Positions 34,895 through 40,677 of a DNA stretch of 64,000 nt are shown one piece after another (within the stretch, counting starts at the first letter, position 1; every line of letters starts with the position of its first letter). The position numbers were made by a program, and so were the translations under genes. Location of the stretch: contig NZ_CP135529.1 in assembly GCF_032401055.1 (NCBI RefSeq), forward strand, positions 2,604,001 through 2,668,000. The letters are read 5' to 3'. This DNA is from Tardiphaga sp. 709. Lineage in GTDB: Bacteria > Pseudomonadota > Alphaproteobacteria > Rhizobiales > Xanthobacteraceae. The notes beneath the pieces were generated by a model. It did not search any database. It saw only the letters and a program-made list of their open reading frames with translations, and was not told where the DNA came from.

Positions 34895-36544
34895 TTACTT
34901 GGCAAACACCTTCGAGATCGCCGCCTGCGCGTCGCTTTGAATCTGCTTGAGATGATCCTCGCTGCGGAAACTCTCCGCATAGATCTTGTAAACGTCCTCG
35001 GTGCCGGACGGCCGCGCGGCGAACCAGCCATTCGCGGTCGACACCTTGATGCCACCGAACGACTGGTCATTGCCGGCCGCCTTGCTCTCGGTCTTGGTCA
35101 CCGCATCGCCGGCGAGTTCGGTCATGCCGATCTGCTCCGGCGTGACCTTCTTCAGCACGTTTTTCTGCTCGGGCGTGGCCGTGGCGTCGATGCGCTCGTA
35201 ATAGGGCGTGCCGAATTCGGCGGTCAGCTTCTCGAAGCGCTGGCTCGGATTTTCCTTCGTCACCGCGGTGATCTCTGCAGCAAGCAGACCGAGGATCAGG
35301 CCATCCTTGTCGGTGGTCCACACCGTGCCGTCCTTGCGCAGGAACGACGCGCCGGCGCTTTCCTCGCCGCCGAAGCCGAACGAGCCGTCGACGAGACCGT
35401 TCACGAACCATTTGAAGCCGACCGGCGTCTCGACCAGTTGGCGGCCGAGCTTGTTCACCACGCGGTCGATGATGGCGCTGGAGACGATGGTCTTGCCCAC
35501 CGCCGCATCCTTGCGCCAGTGCGGCCGGTGCGCGAACAGATAGTCGATGGACGCCGCCAGATAATGGTTCGGATTCATCAAGCCGCCGGTGCGGGTGACG
35601 ATGCCGTGGCGGTCGGCATCGGTGTCGTTGGCGAAAGCGACGTCGAACCGGTCGCGCATGCCGATGAGCTTGGCCATCGCATAGGGCGACGAGCAGTCCA
35701 TGCGGATCTTGCCGTCCCAGTCCAGCGTCATGAAGCGGAAGGTCGGATCGATCGTTGTGTTCACGATGGTTGCATCGAGCTTGTAGCGCTCGATGATCGG
35801 CTGCCAGTAATGCACGCCGGCGCCGCCGAGCGGATCGATGCCGATCTTGACGCCTGATGCGCGGATCGCCTCCATGTCGACGACATCGGCGAGGTCGGTC
35901 ACATAGGGCGTGATGAAATCGTAGCGCTTCACGAATTCGGATTTGCGGGCACGCGCGATCGGGATGCGCTTGACGCCGGCCATGTCGTTCTCGAGGAAGC
36001 CGTTGGCAGCTTTCTCCATGATGCCGGTGATGTCGGTATCGGCCGGGCCACCGTTCGGCGGATTATATTTGAAGCCGCCGTCTTCCGGCGGGTTGTGCGA
36101 CGGCGTGACCACGACGCCATCGGCCAGACCGGACGAGCGGCCCTTGTTGTAGGTGAGGATGGCGTGGGAGATCACCGGCGTCGGCGTATAACCGTCGTCC
36201 TGGTCAATCCGCACATGCACGCCATTGGCGGCGAAGACTTCCAGCGCGCTGACCAGCGCCGGTTCAGCCAGCGCATGGGTGTCGATGCCGATGAACAGCG
36301 GGCCATCGATGCCGGCGCCCTTGCGGTAATCGCAGATCGCCTGGCTGACCGCGAGGATGTGGTTCTCGTTGAAGGAATTGTGGAGCGCGGAGCCGCGATG
36401 GCCGGAGGTGCCGAAAGCGACGCGCTGGGCGGGGATGGACGGATCCGGCTTGCCGGCGAAATAGGCCGACACCAGCCGAGGCACGTTGACCAGCAGGGAC
36501 GGATCGATGGTTTTGCCGGCCAGCGGGCTCACATGAGCAGCCAT
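34895..36544 (-). CDS. pgm: phosphoglucomutase (alpha-D-glucose phosphate-specific)
   Basis: A 549-residue phosphohexomutase interconverting glucose 1-phosphate and glucose 6-phosphate, feeding glycogen and UDP-glucose synthesis. N-terminal GTSGHRGS is near residue 43, the catalytic phosphoserine loop [15 protein letters not shown] near 141, the metal loop DTDADRHG near 300 and the sugar/phosphate loops GGEESAGAS and [11 protein letters not shown] towards the end. The length equals E. coli Pgm. The ATG at 36544 follows GAAGGAG. A 34-codon gene with an FNR box lies 123 bp upstream on the same strand and could drive read-through into pgm. Confidence 0.94.
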
Positions 36545-36667
36545 TTGTTCTCCTTCGCACACCAAGAGCCCTGAAGCGGCGCAGCCGCGACCGGGAGTCA
36601 GAACTCATGGCATGTTTTGGAGAACAAATCAGCTGTTTGCGAGGCGCCGTGTGGCCTCCGAAGGGGC

Positions 36668-36772
36668 TCAGGACTGCCCAAAGGTCCGGCGCGAGACCCA
36701 GGCCAGCGGCAGCGCGAAGCAGACGAACATCGCGACCACGGCGGCGGCAACCAGCATACTGTCGAGAGGCAT
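36668..36772 (-). CDS. 34-aa single-span membrane miniprotein behind an FNR box
   Basis: ATG at 36772 is preceded by a strong AAGGAG at 8-10 bases spacing and encodes 34 residues before TGA: acidic MPLDS, then one hydrophobic helix (MLVAAAVVAMFVCFALPLAW), then a basic tail with SRRTFGQS. That is the layout of a one-pass inner-membrane miniprotein with the C terminus inside. The centre of an FNR box lies 62 bp upstream of the ATG, leaving about 20 bases of leader if activation is at -41.5. Function unknown; small subunits of oxidases or transport complexes look like this. It is too short for standard ORF calling. Confidence 0.68.
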   Translation of the reverse strand: MPLDSMLVAAAVVAMFVCFALPLAWVSRRTFGQS

Positions 36773-36827
36773 ATCTCTTCTCCTTGAGTGACGGAGAAGA
36801 GCTTGCGCCTCGCGCGATGACTGCGCC

Positions 36828-36841
36828 TTGAGGTGGGTCAA
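36828..36841. promoter_or_regulatory. FNR/FixK-type box upstream of the 34-aa gene
   Basis: TTGAGGTGGGTCAA fits TTGA-N6-TCAA. With its centre at -41.5, the start site would be near 36793, about 20 bases before the miniprotein ATG: standard class II geometry for FNR/FixK activation. The FNR homologue is encoded 84 bp further along. Confidence 0.65.
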
Positions 36842-36867: not shown

Positions 36868-36912
36868 CCTCGCCCCGCCGCGCGAAGCAAAGCTTCGCTA
36901 GGCGGGGCGAGG
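36868..36912. terminator. strong GC-rich hairpin, probable terminator of the FNR gene
   Basis: CCTCGCCCCGCC and GGCGGGGCGAGG are perfect 12-bp arms; the loop holds a second small hairpin (GCGAAGC/GCTTCGC). It lies 14 bp past the FNR-homologue stop on the minus strand. There is no T-run, so termination may need Rho or the hairpin may protect the 3' end instead. Confidence 0.5.
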
Positions 36913-36925
36913 TAAGAAAACGAAG

Positions 36926-37699
36926 CTAGGCCGCGGCGAGCTGATCCAGCCGGTCGGTGGACAGCAGCCGCACACCATCGGGCACCACGACTACGGTCTT
37001 TTCCTTGGCGAGCTTGGTCAGGGTGCGGCTGACGGTTTCGATGGTCAGGCCGAGATAGTCGGCGATGTCCTGGCGGCTCATGGGCAGCGGCACGTTGACC
37101 GACATCGCGCCGATGCGGCCATAGCGCGCCTGCAGGTTCAGCAGGAAGGCGGCCACCTTCTCGTCGGCGGTACGACGGCCGAGCAGCAGCATCTGGTCCT
37201 GCGCGAGCGAGAGCTCATGGCCGGCAAATTCATGCAGCCGACGCAGCAGATGCGGCTTGCCGTCGACATAGGTGAGGAAGGCCGCACGGCTGAAGCGGCA
37301 GACGCGCACCTGCGTCACGGCTTCGGCGGCGACGCCGTAGCGGTCCATCAGCGCAAGTCCGAGGAAATCACCGGGCAGCGCGAAGCCGACGATCTGGCGA
37401 CGGCCATCGGGTAGCGACTTGTAGAGCCGGACGATGCCTTCGGTCACGTTGAACACGCTACCGGCCAGCGCGCCCTGATCGAACAGCATGGCCTTGGCCG
37501 GGAAATTCTTGACCTGGCTGAGGCGATCGAGCTCGTCGAGTTCCGCCGGTTCCAATGCGCCGCAGACGCTGAACAGGCGCACCTTGCAATCGTCGCAGCC
37601 GTTGGTGCTACGGCCGTGCTTGCAGTCGCGCTCTCCGGCACAGGTCTCGGCCGCTGGTTCCGCGAAGGTCATGGCACTGTCCATCTTCGGTTTGGTCAT
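36926..37699 (-). CDS. FNR-type oxygen-sensing regulator (AadR/FnrN/FixK group)
   Basis: A 257-residue Crp/Fnr protein. The N-terminal cysteines include C35-x2-C38-x7-C46, and a lone internal Cys is at about 134 (VRVCRFSR): the ligand set of a [4Fe-4S] oxygen sensor as in FNR and FnrN. The recognition helix IADYLGLTIETVSRTLTKL carries the E-x2-SR residues that read TTGAT half-sites. It would dimerise without oxygen and switch genes on or off; AadR of Rhodopseudomonas controls anaerobic aromatic degradation. Two FNR boxes sit 40 and 65 bp upstream of its start, implying autoregulation. Further ATGs at residues 6 and 10 are alternative starts. Confidence 0.9.
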   Translation of the reverse strand: MTKPKMDSAMTFAEPAAETCAGERDCKHGRSTNGCDDCKVRLFSVCGALEPAELDELDRLSQVKNFPAKAMLFDQGALAGSVFNVTEGIVRLYKSLPDGRRQIVGFALPGDFLGLALMDRYGVAAEAVTQVRVCRFSRAAFLTYVDGKPHLLRRLHEFAGHELSLAQDQMLLLGRRTADEKVAAFLLNLQARYGRIGAMSVNVPLPMSRQDIADYLGLTIETVSRTLTKLAKEKTVVVVPDGVRLLSTDRLDQLAAA

Positions 37700-37823: not shown

Positions 37824-38228
37824 ATGAATGAGGAATATCAGGCGCAACCAGTGACTTGGGCGGACGCTCGCGCAGCCTATCCGCTCGTCTATCTGCACGA
37901 TGCCAGCGTTACGCTGGATGCATGGCTGGATTTCGTGCGCCGGCGAACCGATGCCGACGGCGGCGACAACGGGCTGATCGTGATCCGCGACCGGCGCGAT
38001 ATCGTCCATGCGCTGTTTGCCTACCGGGTCGATCTCGACCTGCGCGGCACCAAACAGCTCTGTATCGCGCAGCTGATCGTCGCCCAGATTCCCGGCTCGC
38101 AGATCGACCATGCCGTGGTCGCCTCGACCAGCCATGTCGCGGCGTCACTGGGCTGTCCGAGCATCGTGATCGAGCAGCCGTTCCAACTGATGCCGGGCGC
38201 GACGACGCGGACCTCCACAGCCGCGTGA
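37824..38228 (+). CDS. conserved hypothetical protein divergent from the FNR homologue
   Basis: A 134-residue soluble protein, acidic at the N terminus (MNEEYQAQPVTW), with alternating strand and helix segments (LIVIRDRRDIVHALFAYRVD, CIAQLIVAQIPG) faintly reminiscent of GNAT acyltransferases but lacking a clear acyl-CoA motif. An upstream in-frame ATG at 37749 would place FNR box 2 inside the coding sequence, so the ATG at 37824 is preferred. Two FNR boxes upstream indicate oxygen-responsive expression with the FNR homologue. Function unknown. Confidence 0.72.
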   Translation: MNEEYQAQPVTWADARAAYPLVYLHDASVTLDAWLDFVRRRTDADGGDNGLIVIRDRRDIVHALFAYRVDLDLRGTKQLCIAQLIVAQIPGSQIDHAVVASTSHVAASLGCPSIVIEQPFQLMPGATTRTSTAA

Positions 38229-38283: not shown

Positions 38284-40677
38284 TCACAAGACGAAGTCAC
38301 CTGCCTTCAAGACGGCGGTGTTCACCTGAACCGCGAAGTCGGCCGCGCCATCGCCATCGACATCGCCCTGAAGAAGATGATCGACGAAGCGCAATTCACC
38401 GGCGATATGTGTGAAAGCGGCGCTTCCGACGAAGGCGAACGCTTGATCACCGGCGGCCTTGCTGTTGGCATCGATTGCCGACAGATCGATCCAATCGGCC
38501 GTGTCTGCGGCGATCGACGAAAAGTCGGTGATCTGATCGGCAGCTCCGGGCAGACTGTCCTGCACAGCCTTGAATACAAAACTGTCCGCGCCGGCTCCAC
38601 CGGTCAGCACGTCGGCTCCAAGCCCGCCTGTGAGCGTGTCGTTGCCGGTGCCGCCATCAAGACTATCGTTACCGCCGCCACCATCGATCAGATCGTTACC
38701 GCCGCCACCGGAAATGCGATTGTCACCTGCGTCACCGGTCAGCAGGTCCATGGTCCCGCTCCCGATCAGATTTTCGATCGAACTGAGTTTGTCGCCCCCA
38801 GCATCTCCCCATTGAATGACGCCAGTCGCGAGATTGATATTCACCTGGGCGATCGACGTGCTGTAGTCCGCCGTATCGTTGCCGGCGCCGCCGGCAAGCA
38901 TATCGGCACCCGCGCCGCCGGCCAGGATATCGTCACCCGCATTGCCCCAAAGCTGATCGCTACCGGCACCGCCGTGCAGAATGTCATTGCCCGCGCCGCC
39001 GGTCAGGGCATCGTTGCCTTCGCCGCCATCCAGCACGTCATTGCCGTCGCGACCGTCCAGGATGTCCTTGCCGCTGCTGCCTGATAACGTGTTGGCGGCA
39101 TCGTCGCCGATCAGCATGTCGTCAAATCGGCTGCCGATCACCGTCTCGATCGAACTGAAACTGTCACCGGCGGCATCGCCTCCGCTGCCCGTGCCAAGCG
39201 TCAGATCGATGTGAACACCAGACGACGATGTCTCGTAACGCACCGTATCGATCCCGGACGCGCCTGCGAAAGCATCGGCGCCCTTGCCGCCGACGAAGAT
39301 GTCATTGCCGTCACCGCCCCACATGCGGTCGTCGCCATCGCCGCCGAACAGAAAATCATTTCCGGCATCGCCGTAGAGAAAGTCGTTGCCGCCGTCGCCA
39401 TGCAGGACGTCGTTTCCCGCCGCACCATGTATTGTGTCGCGACCCTCACCGCCGTGAATGATGTCGTTGTCCACCGTGCCGGGGAGCACGTCATCGCCCG
39501 GCGTGCCATTGGTGATCGTGTTGAACGACATGATGCGGCCATGGATGTCATCTGCAGCCGGTCCTTGCTCAAACGAGGTCCAGGTCGCGAGAATACGCCC
39601 ATCGGATAATGTCAGGAGATGCGGTCCGGTTTCCGCCAGGCCACCTGTCGAATTAACGAGGAAATCGTTGCCGATCGGGAAAGCGCCCGGAATCAGCAGG
39701 CGACCGTAAAGATCACTGGCGCCGGTGGCGGGATCGGTGGCGTGCCAGATGATGACGGCGCGGCCATCCGGCAGTGCGGCGATCGACGGGGAATCCTGAC
39801 TGCCGTCAAAATTTGCATTGACGATATTATCGGACACAACCACGGATCCGTCCGGGTTCAGCAGGCGCGCATGAATGTTGCTATCACCATCCGGTTCCTG
39901 TGCGGTCCAGGCCACGAGAATGCGGCCATCCGCGAGAACCGCGGCGGAGGCGTCGCTCTGATTGAATTGGGCTCCGGGCAGGACGCGAAAGTCCGGCCCG
40001 CTCGCGCTGCCATCGGGATTCACGAACTGGCCGGAGACGTTGTAGCGCCCTTCGTCCGGATCGTACGACCTCCATGTGACGAACGCCCGACCGTCGGGCA
40101 GCGCTGTCACCTTCGGATCATATTGCGTACCCCAGGTGGTCGTATTCACGGTGAAGTCGTCGACAGCAACGGTGCCGTCGTCGTGGAGGATCCTTCCGCG
40201 GATATCGCCAAGATATTTCGGATCCCCGCCATCCGCGGACACGTAGGTCAGCAAGATCTGGCCATCGGCAAGCGTCGTGACGGAAGGCATCTGCGGCGAA
40301 ATTGCCGTCGATGAATTGACGACCATATCGGCAACGGGATGCCCCTGTGCATCGACGAGGGTGCCGCGAACTTCGGTGACATTGTCGGCGGCGATATAGG
40401 ATTGCCATGCGACAAAGGCGCGGCCGTCGGAAAGCGCGGTGACGGAAGGCGCTCCCGGATCTCCGCTCCGATCGATCGTGATCTGAAAATCAGGTCCTTG
40501 AGGCGTACCGTCCGCCGACAGGTAGTGGCCCTGAATTGTATGCGGCTGATGACCGCTGACATCCGTCGCAGTCCATGTGACAAGAATACGTCCGTCGGAC
40601 AACAGCGTTTGAGTTGCTCCCGCCTGATCGTTGGCGGTCGTGGAATTGATAGGAAATTCAGGTCCGACAAACGCCAT
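38284..40677 (-). CDS. RTX calcium-binding protein with seven N-terminal propeller-like repeats
   Basis: A 797-residue protein with no Sec signal peptide. Residues about 15-375 hold seven units of about 50 residues, each with a DGR-xhhhTW core and a G-DF-V ending, e.g. LSDGRILVTWTATD, LPDGRAFVTWRSYD and LSDGRILATWTSFE: the repeat number of a seven-bladed beta-propeller. Residues about 380-720 are glycine/aspartate nonapeptides (GGEGNDALTGGAGNDILHGG type) that bind Ca2+ and fold outside the cell. The C terminus (LKAGDFVL) suits type I secretion. No HlyB/HlyD/TolC genes are adjacent, so the exporter must be elsewhere. Role perhaps adhesion or surface binding; unknown. Confidence 0.88.
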   Translation of the reverse strand: MAFVGPEFPINSTTANDQAGATQTLLSDGRILVTWTATDVSGHQPHTIQGHYLSADGTPQGPDFQITIDRSGDPGAPSVTALSDGRAFVAWQSYIAADNVTEVRGTLVDAQGHPVADMVVNSSTAISPQMPSVTTLADGQILLTYVSADGGDPKYLGDIRGRILHDDGTVAVDDFTVNTTTWGTQYDPKVTALPDGRAFVTWRSYDPDEGRYNVSGQFVNPDGSASGPDFRVLPGAQFNQSDASAAVLADGRILVAWTAQEPDGDSNIHARLLNPDGSVVVSDNIVNANFDGSQDSPSIAALPDGRAVIIWHATDPATGASDLYGRLLIPGAFPIGNDFLVNSTGGLAETGPHLLTLSDGRILATWTSFEQGPAADDIHGRIMSFNTITNGTPGDDVLPGTVDNDIIHGGEGRDTIHGAAGNDVLHGDGGNDFLYGDAGNDFLFGGDGDDRMWGGDGNDIFVGGKGADAFAGASGIDTVRYETSSSGVHIDLTLGTGSGGDAAGDSFSSIETVIGSRFDDMLIGDDAANTLSGSSGKDILDGRDGNDVLDGGEGNDALTGGAGNDILHGGAGSDQLWGNAGDDILAGGAGADMLAGGAGNDTADYSTSIAQVNINLATGVIQWGDAGGDKLSSIENLIGSGTMDLLTGDAGDNRISGGGGNDLIDGGGGNDSLDGGTGNDTLTGGLGADVLTGGAGADSFVFKAVQDSLPGAADQITDFSSIAADTADWIDLSAIDANSKAAGDQAFAFVGSAAFTHIAGELRFVDHLLQGDVDGDGAADFAVQVNTAVLKAGDFVL

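Follow-up and report, generated by a model that had tools for sequence, protein, structure and literature searches.

A single-helix membrane protein family with an FNR/FixK-type promoter box, predicted from Tardiphaga sp. 709 and its alphaproteobacterial relatives

RESULTS

A small gene between an fnr-like gene and a phosphoglucomutase gene

The window, the whole 64-kb stretch of Tardiphaga sp. 709 DNA that was analysed, carries on its minus strand, in this order, an fnr-like gene, a small gene of 34 codons and a phosphoglucomutase gene (Table 1; all positions are those of the window). The small gene is read from an ATG at 36772–36770 to a stop codon at 36670–36668 and its peptide is MPLDSMLVAAAVVAMFVCFALPLAWVSRRTFGQS. 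A previous reading of the sequence only had described an open reading frame of this length behind an AAGGAG site, an FNR box with its centre 62 bp upstream of the ATG, and an FNR homologue as the next gene upstream, and each of these features was found. It had also given the gene as 36668..36841, which is the whole open frame counted from a TTG within the box, and so longer than the gene itself (Table 1). The start site that it had put at about 36793, giving a ∼20-nt leader, follows from class II arithmetic when the box is placed at −41.5, and is likewise a prediction here. The centre of the −10-like hexamer is 32 bp from that of the box, and the hexamer has A at its second place and T at its sixth, the commonest bases there in the relatives.

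Table 1. Positions of the features at the small-gene locus in the 64-kb window
Feature	Position	Strand	Basis or remark
Small membrane protein gene, 34 codons + stop	36668..36772	-	ORF calling, relatives, purifying selection, helix model
Ribosome binding site AAGGAG	36780..36785	-	7 nt spacer to the small-gene ATG; read from sequence
-10-like hexamer CAAGCT	36800..36805	-	Inferred for Tardiphaga sp. 709 from a box-anchored alignment of 74 promoters
Predicted transcription start	36793	-	Class II spacing -41.5; inferred
FNR/FixK-type box TTGACCCACCTCAA	36828..36841	-	Centre 62 bp before the small-gene ATG; equivalent place in relatives
FNR-like regulator gene	36926..37699	-	C35, C38, C46, C134; next gene upstream of the small gene
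FNR-type box TTGATCCATGTCAA	37733..37746	-	Centre 40 bp before the fnr ATG
FNR-type box TTGATATGGGTCAA	37758..37771	-	Centre 65 bp before the fnr ATG
Phosphoglucomutase gene	34895-36565	-	TIGR01132, 902.7 bits

The FNR-like protein of the window contains a cNMP-binding domain and a Crp-type HTH domain, and scores 157.7 bits against the NCBIfam FnrL model, below its cut-off of 300. In 22 of 61 loci the gene next upstream is fnr-like, lies on the same strand and ends 70–153 nt before the small gene. Eighteen of these 22 regulators have an N-terminal CX2CX7C; the motif is partial at loci L016 and L100, the match beside L100 covering only ∼107 residues, and is missing at L019 and L079. Over five aligned regulators, C35, C38, C46 and C134 are invariant. 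These four cysteines are arranged as in FnrL and FnrN, as would be expected if the neighbouring regulator is an oxygen sensor of the [4Fe-4S] type. Among eight relatives of the same genus, the region upstream of fnr has two boxes in seven and one box in the remaining one. The two boxes upstream of fnr in the window make autoregulation possible.

Some other elements are present in this region. A palindromic element at 36868–36919, between the fnr stop codon and the box, has about 20 further copies in the genome, a figure reached from 27 matches by removing its own locus and duplicates on both strands. At three loci without the element (L010, L011 and L013) the distance from the fnr stop to the small gene is ∼83 nt, against 153 nt. 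The two-box region of fnr is common to a divergent gene of 134 codons (37824–38228), which matched no Pfam family and is present at 9 of the 61 loci, that of Tardiphaga sp. 709 included, within flanks of 1.5 kb only. A large RTX-repeat protein (HemolysinCabind, 12 stretches) is encoded near the fnr region, at 38284–40677.

The small gene is conserved and under purifying selection

Relatives of the peptide were found in 26 of 101 genomes (the window's own and 100 relatives) at an E-value of 0.1 or better. Start codons and upstream DNA were used to judge 22 of the 28 loci from this search as real, and the others (L027 and L032–L036) were treated as chance. Within the genus, 13 of the 18 genomes searched have the gene, counting Tardiphaga sp. 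709. A profile built from 20 members matched, at E 0.01 and with weak matches included, 107 of 198 genomes of the family, 53 of 297 of the order and 15 of 299 of the phylum, where two matches outside the class (E 0.002–0.006) were treated as chance. With an 84-member profile, and counting the window's own genome each time, the gene was detected in 114/198 genomes of the family sample (E 0.01), 52/297 of the order sample (E 0.001) and 9/192 of the class sample (E 0.001), the last being the own genome and eight others; both order counts include weak matches lying within long frames, which are probably due to chance. Most carriers in the family sample have a single match to the 84-member profile. 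The underlying alignment (A3) has 84 rows because three near-duplicate peptides of 87 were omitted.

Evolution at the codon level is purifying. Among eleven sequences from the same genus, dN/dS ranged from 0.10 to 0.52 in ten chosen pairs, and over all 55 pairs there were 427, 283 and 675 differences at the first, second and third codon positions, respectively. The small ORF is a real gene and not a chance frame; conservation in relatives, which the sequence-only reading had named as a test of its proposal, is plain in the genus and family counts given above.

A single hydrophobic helix with one conserved face

Each of the 84 aligned members contains a 19-residue window with a mean hydropathy above 1.6. 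The fourth residue is acidic in 72 of them, and 80 carry more positive charge at the C-terminus than at the N-terminus. AlphaFold2, run on the single sequence, returned one helix over residues 2–32 with a mean pLDDT of 89.6. The single hydrophobic helix and basic tail described earlier for the window's ORF hold up as predictions. Given the positive-inside rule for membrane topology, the more positive C-terminus leads to a predicted orientation with the N-terminus outside and the C-terminus inside. The product is therefore predicted to be a single-pass membrane microprotein with an asymmetric distribution of charge.

Conservation along the helix is also patterned. Over residues 5–30 its periodicity peaks at 100 degrees, which is the helical pitch (permutation p 0.0046), and one face is conserved, made up of positions 8, 12, 16, 19, 23, 26 and 30, with 5 and 15 beside it. 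F16 is kept in 82/84 members and F19 in 81/84, and position 25 is aromatic in 81/84 (W in 68, Y in 13).

Searching all 84 members against Pfam and NCBIfam at E 0.01, we found no model that matched more than two of them, and no chain was better than E 1.6 in profile searches of the PDB. The window peptide on its own weakly matched the Pfam model for COX8 (cytochrome c oxidase subunit VIII) at E 0.077 and 13.4 bits, where the cut-off is 24; it was taken as chance, since none of the 84 members matched that model at E 0.01. Three peptide queries against plasmid records returned no annotated relative, the two weak matches lying inside unrelated genes. The partial literature covered, with most subscription papers outside its scope, contained no description of the family. 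Apparently, then, this is an undescribed alphaproteobacterial family of single-helix proteins with an FNR-type box.

The promoter box is kept at a fixed distance

The box was scored at 88 distinct loci, L089 (chance) and L109 (frame split) having been excluded beforehand. At 74 of the 88 a strict TTGA-N6-TCAA was found, its centre 54–75 bp upstream of the start codon and most often at 61 bp; a second count gave the same figure. As a control, other predicted genes of the wide loci have a strict box at such a spacing in 22 of 547 cases, a set that probably contains fix genes and shared intergenic regions. Because the members were gathered by protein sequence alone, the conservation of the box is independent evidence. 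It extends to eight loci from other orders that had no part in building the profile: a strict box lies at −62 to −71 in six; of the two exceptions, L291 has a box with a changed half-site and L293 has none.

The 14 loci without a strict box in place fall into several kinds. The distance is kept with one half-site changed at L074, L090 and L195, and with both changed at L193, while the right half is altered at L017, L105, L106 and L107. At L025, L189 and L207 a strict box is found at a different distance. No box is nearby at L031, L064 and L192, L031 having one at −263. In the three Bradyrhizobium genomes with an altered right half (L105, L106 and L107) the box reads TTGATCCAGCACAA, and is perhaps read by another regulator.

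Aligning the 74 promoters on the box gave the consensus TTGATCCAGATCAA, with a −10-like element, at a distance of 32 bp from the centre of the box, that begins with T or A, continues with A in 58% and has T at the sixth place in 62%. Judged from these alignments, the distance between box and −10-like element is that of a class II activator, and the small gene is a predicted FNR/FixK class II target. As the available part of Dufour et al. 2010 (PMC2908626) has it, the sequences bound by FNR, FixK and DNR are indistinguishable, so the box alone does not settle which regulator acts in each species.

Neighbouring genes vary, with recurrent links to low-oxygen respiration

To describe the wider surroundings, 60 wide loci were hand-picked from the matches to span genera, and neighbours received their names from comparison with a small set of reference genes drawn from the loci, not from a systematic family search. 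The labels FixO, FixQ, FixP, FixG, FixL, FixJ and CydB are our own assignments, whereas the FixN and CydA positions agree with matches to TIGR00780 and PF01654. An fnr/fixK-like gene, fixLJ, fixNOQPG or cydAB lies within ∼5 kb of the small gene at 21 of the 60 loci, two of which (L192 and L193) are counted near regulators solely through a CRP/FNR match of 35% identity. At the other 39, none of the tested genes of respiration or oxygen sensing was counted as close by, although two of them (L214 and L236) have a cytochrome c or a partial match to FixO and nothing more; the lack of such neighbours counts against a respiratory role. Twelve further loci, chosen for proximity to ccoN or cydA or for belonging to genus g20, are outside the 21/60 count.

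Over all 72 loci, the small gene is near cydAB in three (genomes G040, G116 and G180), where it is on the opposite strand; its own box was read at two cydAB-adjacent loci, L196 and that of G180 (L247). At L199, L200 and L229, fixN is downstream with a box of its own 40–51 bp before the start of its match, which suggests that the small gene forms a unit of its own. At L186 and L187 the small gene follows fixL, fixJ and a receiver-only protein, and at L228 it is near fixLJ in another order. A receiver-only protein of ∼130 residues, possibly a single-domain regulator such as FixT, was seen beside fixJ at L186, L187, L257, L264, L267 and L291. Linkage to fix, cyd and fnr genes in some genera supports a respiratory role, but this co-location may reflect only the clustering of one regulon.

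Co-occurrence argues against a partner confined to the cbb3 oxidase

In the 198 genomes of the family sample, with the small gene called at E 1e-4, 92 have both the gene and ccoN, 17 the gene only, 59 ccoN only and 30 neither. The association is weak (odds ratio 2.75, p 0.004), and the 59 ccoN-bearing genomes that do without the small gene were counted against a respiratory role. Physical linkage points the other way. Taking ccoN positions among the matches listed, with distances taken by hand, at least 11 of the 92 genomes with both, from at least seven genera, have the small gene no more than 12 kb from ccoN; under our estimated chance rate of 0.006 this has a probability near 1e-11, a calculation in which related genomes are not independent. 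Outside the order, the two genes are 7.6 kb apart in G755.

Carriers without ccoN are numerous, both within the family (17 of 109) and outside it (8 of 21), and they rule out a strict cbb3 partner. Since so many carriers manage without ccoN, a partner limited to the cbb3 oxidase is unlikely. There is no clear association with cydA either, because it is missing from at least 10 of the 109 carriers and from 24 of the 198 genomes of the whole family sample. In five genomes of genus g20 the small gene is present while ccoN and cydA are both absent at the limits used, and the g20 loci read (L192 and L193) are without a strict box. In one genome of the same genus as Tardiphaga sp. 709 (G014), the small gene, ccoN and cydA are jointly absent, a point in favour of a respiratory role. 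The earlier suggestion that such a protein tunes a terminal oxidase thus stays plausible, with some backing from gene neighbourhoods, but a strict tie to cbb3 is contradicted by the ccoN-less carriers. A role in low-oxygen respiration more generally is probably the best reading.

DISCUSSION

In rhizobia and purple bacteria, FNR and FixK govern respiration under oxygen limitation, and their regulons have repeatedly been mapped. We consider it very probable that the small gene is translated into a membrane protein under FNR/FixK control. How such a protein might work can be sketched as follows. A drop in oxygen would lead the FNR-like protein encoded next door, or a homologue of the FixK type that recognises the same box, to bind at −41.5 and activate a transcript with a short leader. 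The peptide would then insert into the inner membrane, its acidic N-terminus outside and its basic C-terminus inside, and the conserved face (8, 12, 16, 19, 23, 26 and 30, next to W25) could pack against a larger protein of the membrane, with a complex of the low-oxygen respiratory chain as the first candidate. By analogy with CcoM for cbb3 and CydH or CydX for cytochrome bd, it may be an orphan accessory subunit or modulator. This proposal as a whole, an FNR/FixK-controlled microprotein packing on a low-oxygen respiratory complex, is our preferred reading, offered tentatively; that the peptide acts on a respiratory complex at all we hold with about the same reserve, or slightly more. Somewhat more speculative is a wider version, in which the gene would have been missed so far although it belongs to the core of the ancestral FNR/FixK regulon in alphaproteobacteria. 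It would encode a general low-oxygen subunit or modulator of the respiratory chain, a one-helix peptide without a counterpart in the curated libraries searched, whose promoter cassette was kept while its partner (cbb3, bd or another) switched between lineages.

Small one-helix subunits are familiar from both kinds of oxidase. CydX/AppX and CbdX-type subunits have about 30–37 residues and one helix, and FixQ/CcoQ is a small single-helix cbb3 protein of the FNR/FixK regulon. The family resembles the CydX, AppX and CbdX proteins in size and in its one helix, and lies near cydAB at L196, L258 and L259, but no Pfam or NCBIfam model of the CydX (YbgT) or CbdX kind matched any of the 84 members at E 0.01, and whereas cydX belongs to the cydAB operon, the small gene beside cydAB sits on the other strand. 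It differs from FixQ/CcoQ in having no Pfam match and in not lying between ccoO and ccoP; a separate FixQ-like gene is present at L198–L200 and L229. CcoM, the 36-residue cbb3 subunit of Pseudomonas stutzeri (5DJQ chain N), is likewise one short protein, but comparison of the profile with one CcoM sequence detected no similarity, and many carriers of the small gene are without ccoN. Identity with an alphaproteobacterial CcoM was rejected on this profile comparison. The portion of text available for P. stutzeri CcoM gives ∼35 residues and a role at low oxygen (PMC10433244). For AppX, 30 residues are given in the accessible part of PMC8585947, which also describes CydH/CydY (ynhF) as an orphan gene for a single-helix accessory protein of E. 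coli cytochrome bd-I. This orphan fourth bd-I subunit is like the present family in both respects; it was compared through the PDB profile searches alone, where no chain matched.

Other functions for the peptide were weighed against action on a respiratory complex. AzuC, a small protein of E. coli, regulates an FNR-linked membrane protein, and the present peptide might do the same for a transporter or a dehydrogenase. The variation among neighbours, and the carriers without ccoN or cydA, would fit; however, the tested neighbours that recur across genera are fnr/fixK-like genes, fixLJ, fixNOQP and cydAB, and we think such a function unlikely. The peptide might instead serve the oxygen-sensing circuit itself, as a membrane feedback or adaptor peptide of FixL or FNR/FixK and not of an oxidase. 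That would account for an fnr-like gene next upstream at 22/61 loci, for the position after fixL, fixJ and the receiver-only protein at L186 and L187 or near fixLJ at L228, and for carriers without ccoN. Yet over half of the 60 wide loci are not beside such regulators, and the 59 family genomes that have ccoN and no small gene tell against it too, so that we regard it as improbable.

A hydrophobic peptide that arrests growth or resembles a type I toxin, and is induced at low oxygen, would match the size and hydrophobicity of the product, but hardly its wide conservation, the single match in most carriers, the specific F/F/W positions or an activator-type site at a fixed spacing; we give it very little weight. 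Finally, short ORFs are frequent in a 64-kb window, and this one could in principle be a chance frame whose box serves an RNA or a downstream gene. With profile matches across the class, purifying selection, downstream genes that differ between loci and a separate box for fixN at L199, L200 and L229, we find this scarcely credible. The differing neighbours, together with the box that fixN keeps for itself at those three loci, also rule out a leader peptide of one downstream gene.

If the peptide does act in low-oxygen respiration, the constant pattern of promoter and protein, unmatched in Pfam, NCBIfam and the PDB, would point to a missing part of that machinery. Core FNR/FixK regulons of the Alphaproteobacteria include unnamed hypothetical proteins, and the regulon list was drawn up from sets of orthologs among annotated genes, according to the part of Dufour et al. 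2010 that was available (PMC2908626). Compared by description only, these hypotheticals share the box and the regulon with the family described here, which could be one of them. A search that combines the family profile with the box could locate the small gene in genomes where it is easily overlooked. Two unusual arrangements came up among the loci collected. In an Afipia MAG (L109, near 4818) the small gene is broken across two frames with its box intact, which is either decay or a sequencing error, and genome G153 carries three copies of the gene (L058, L098 and L100), each after an fnr-like gene.
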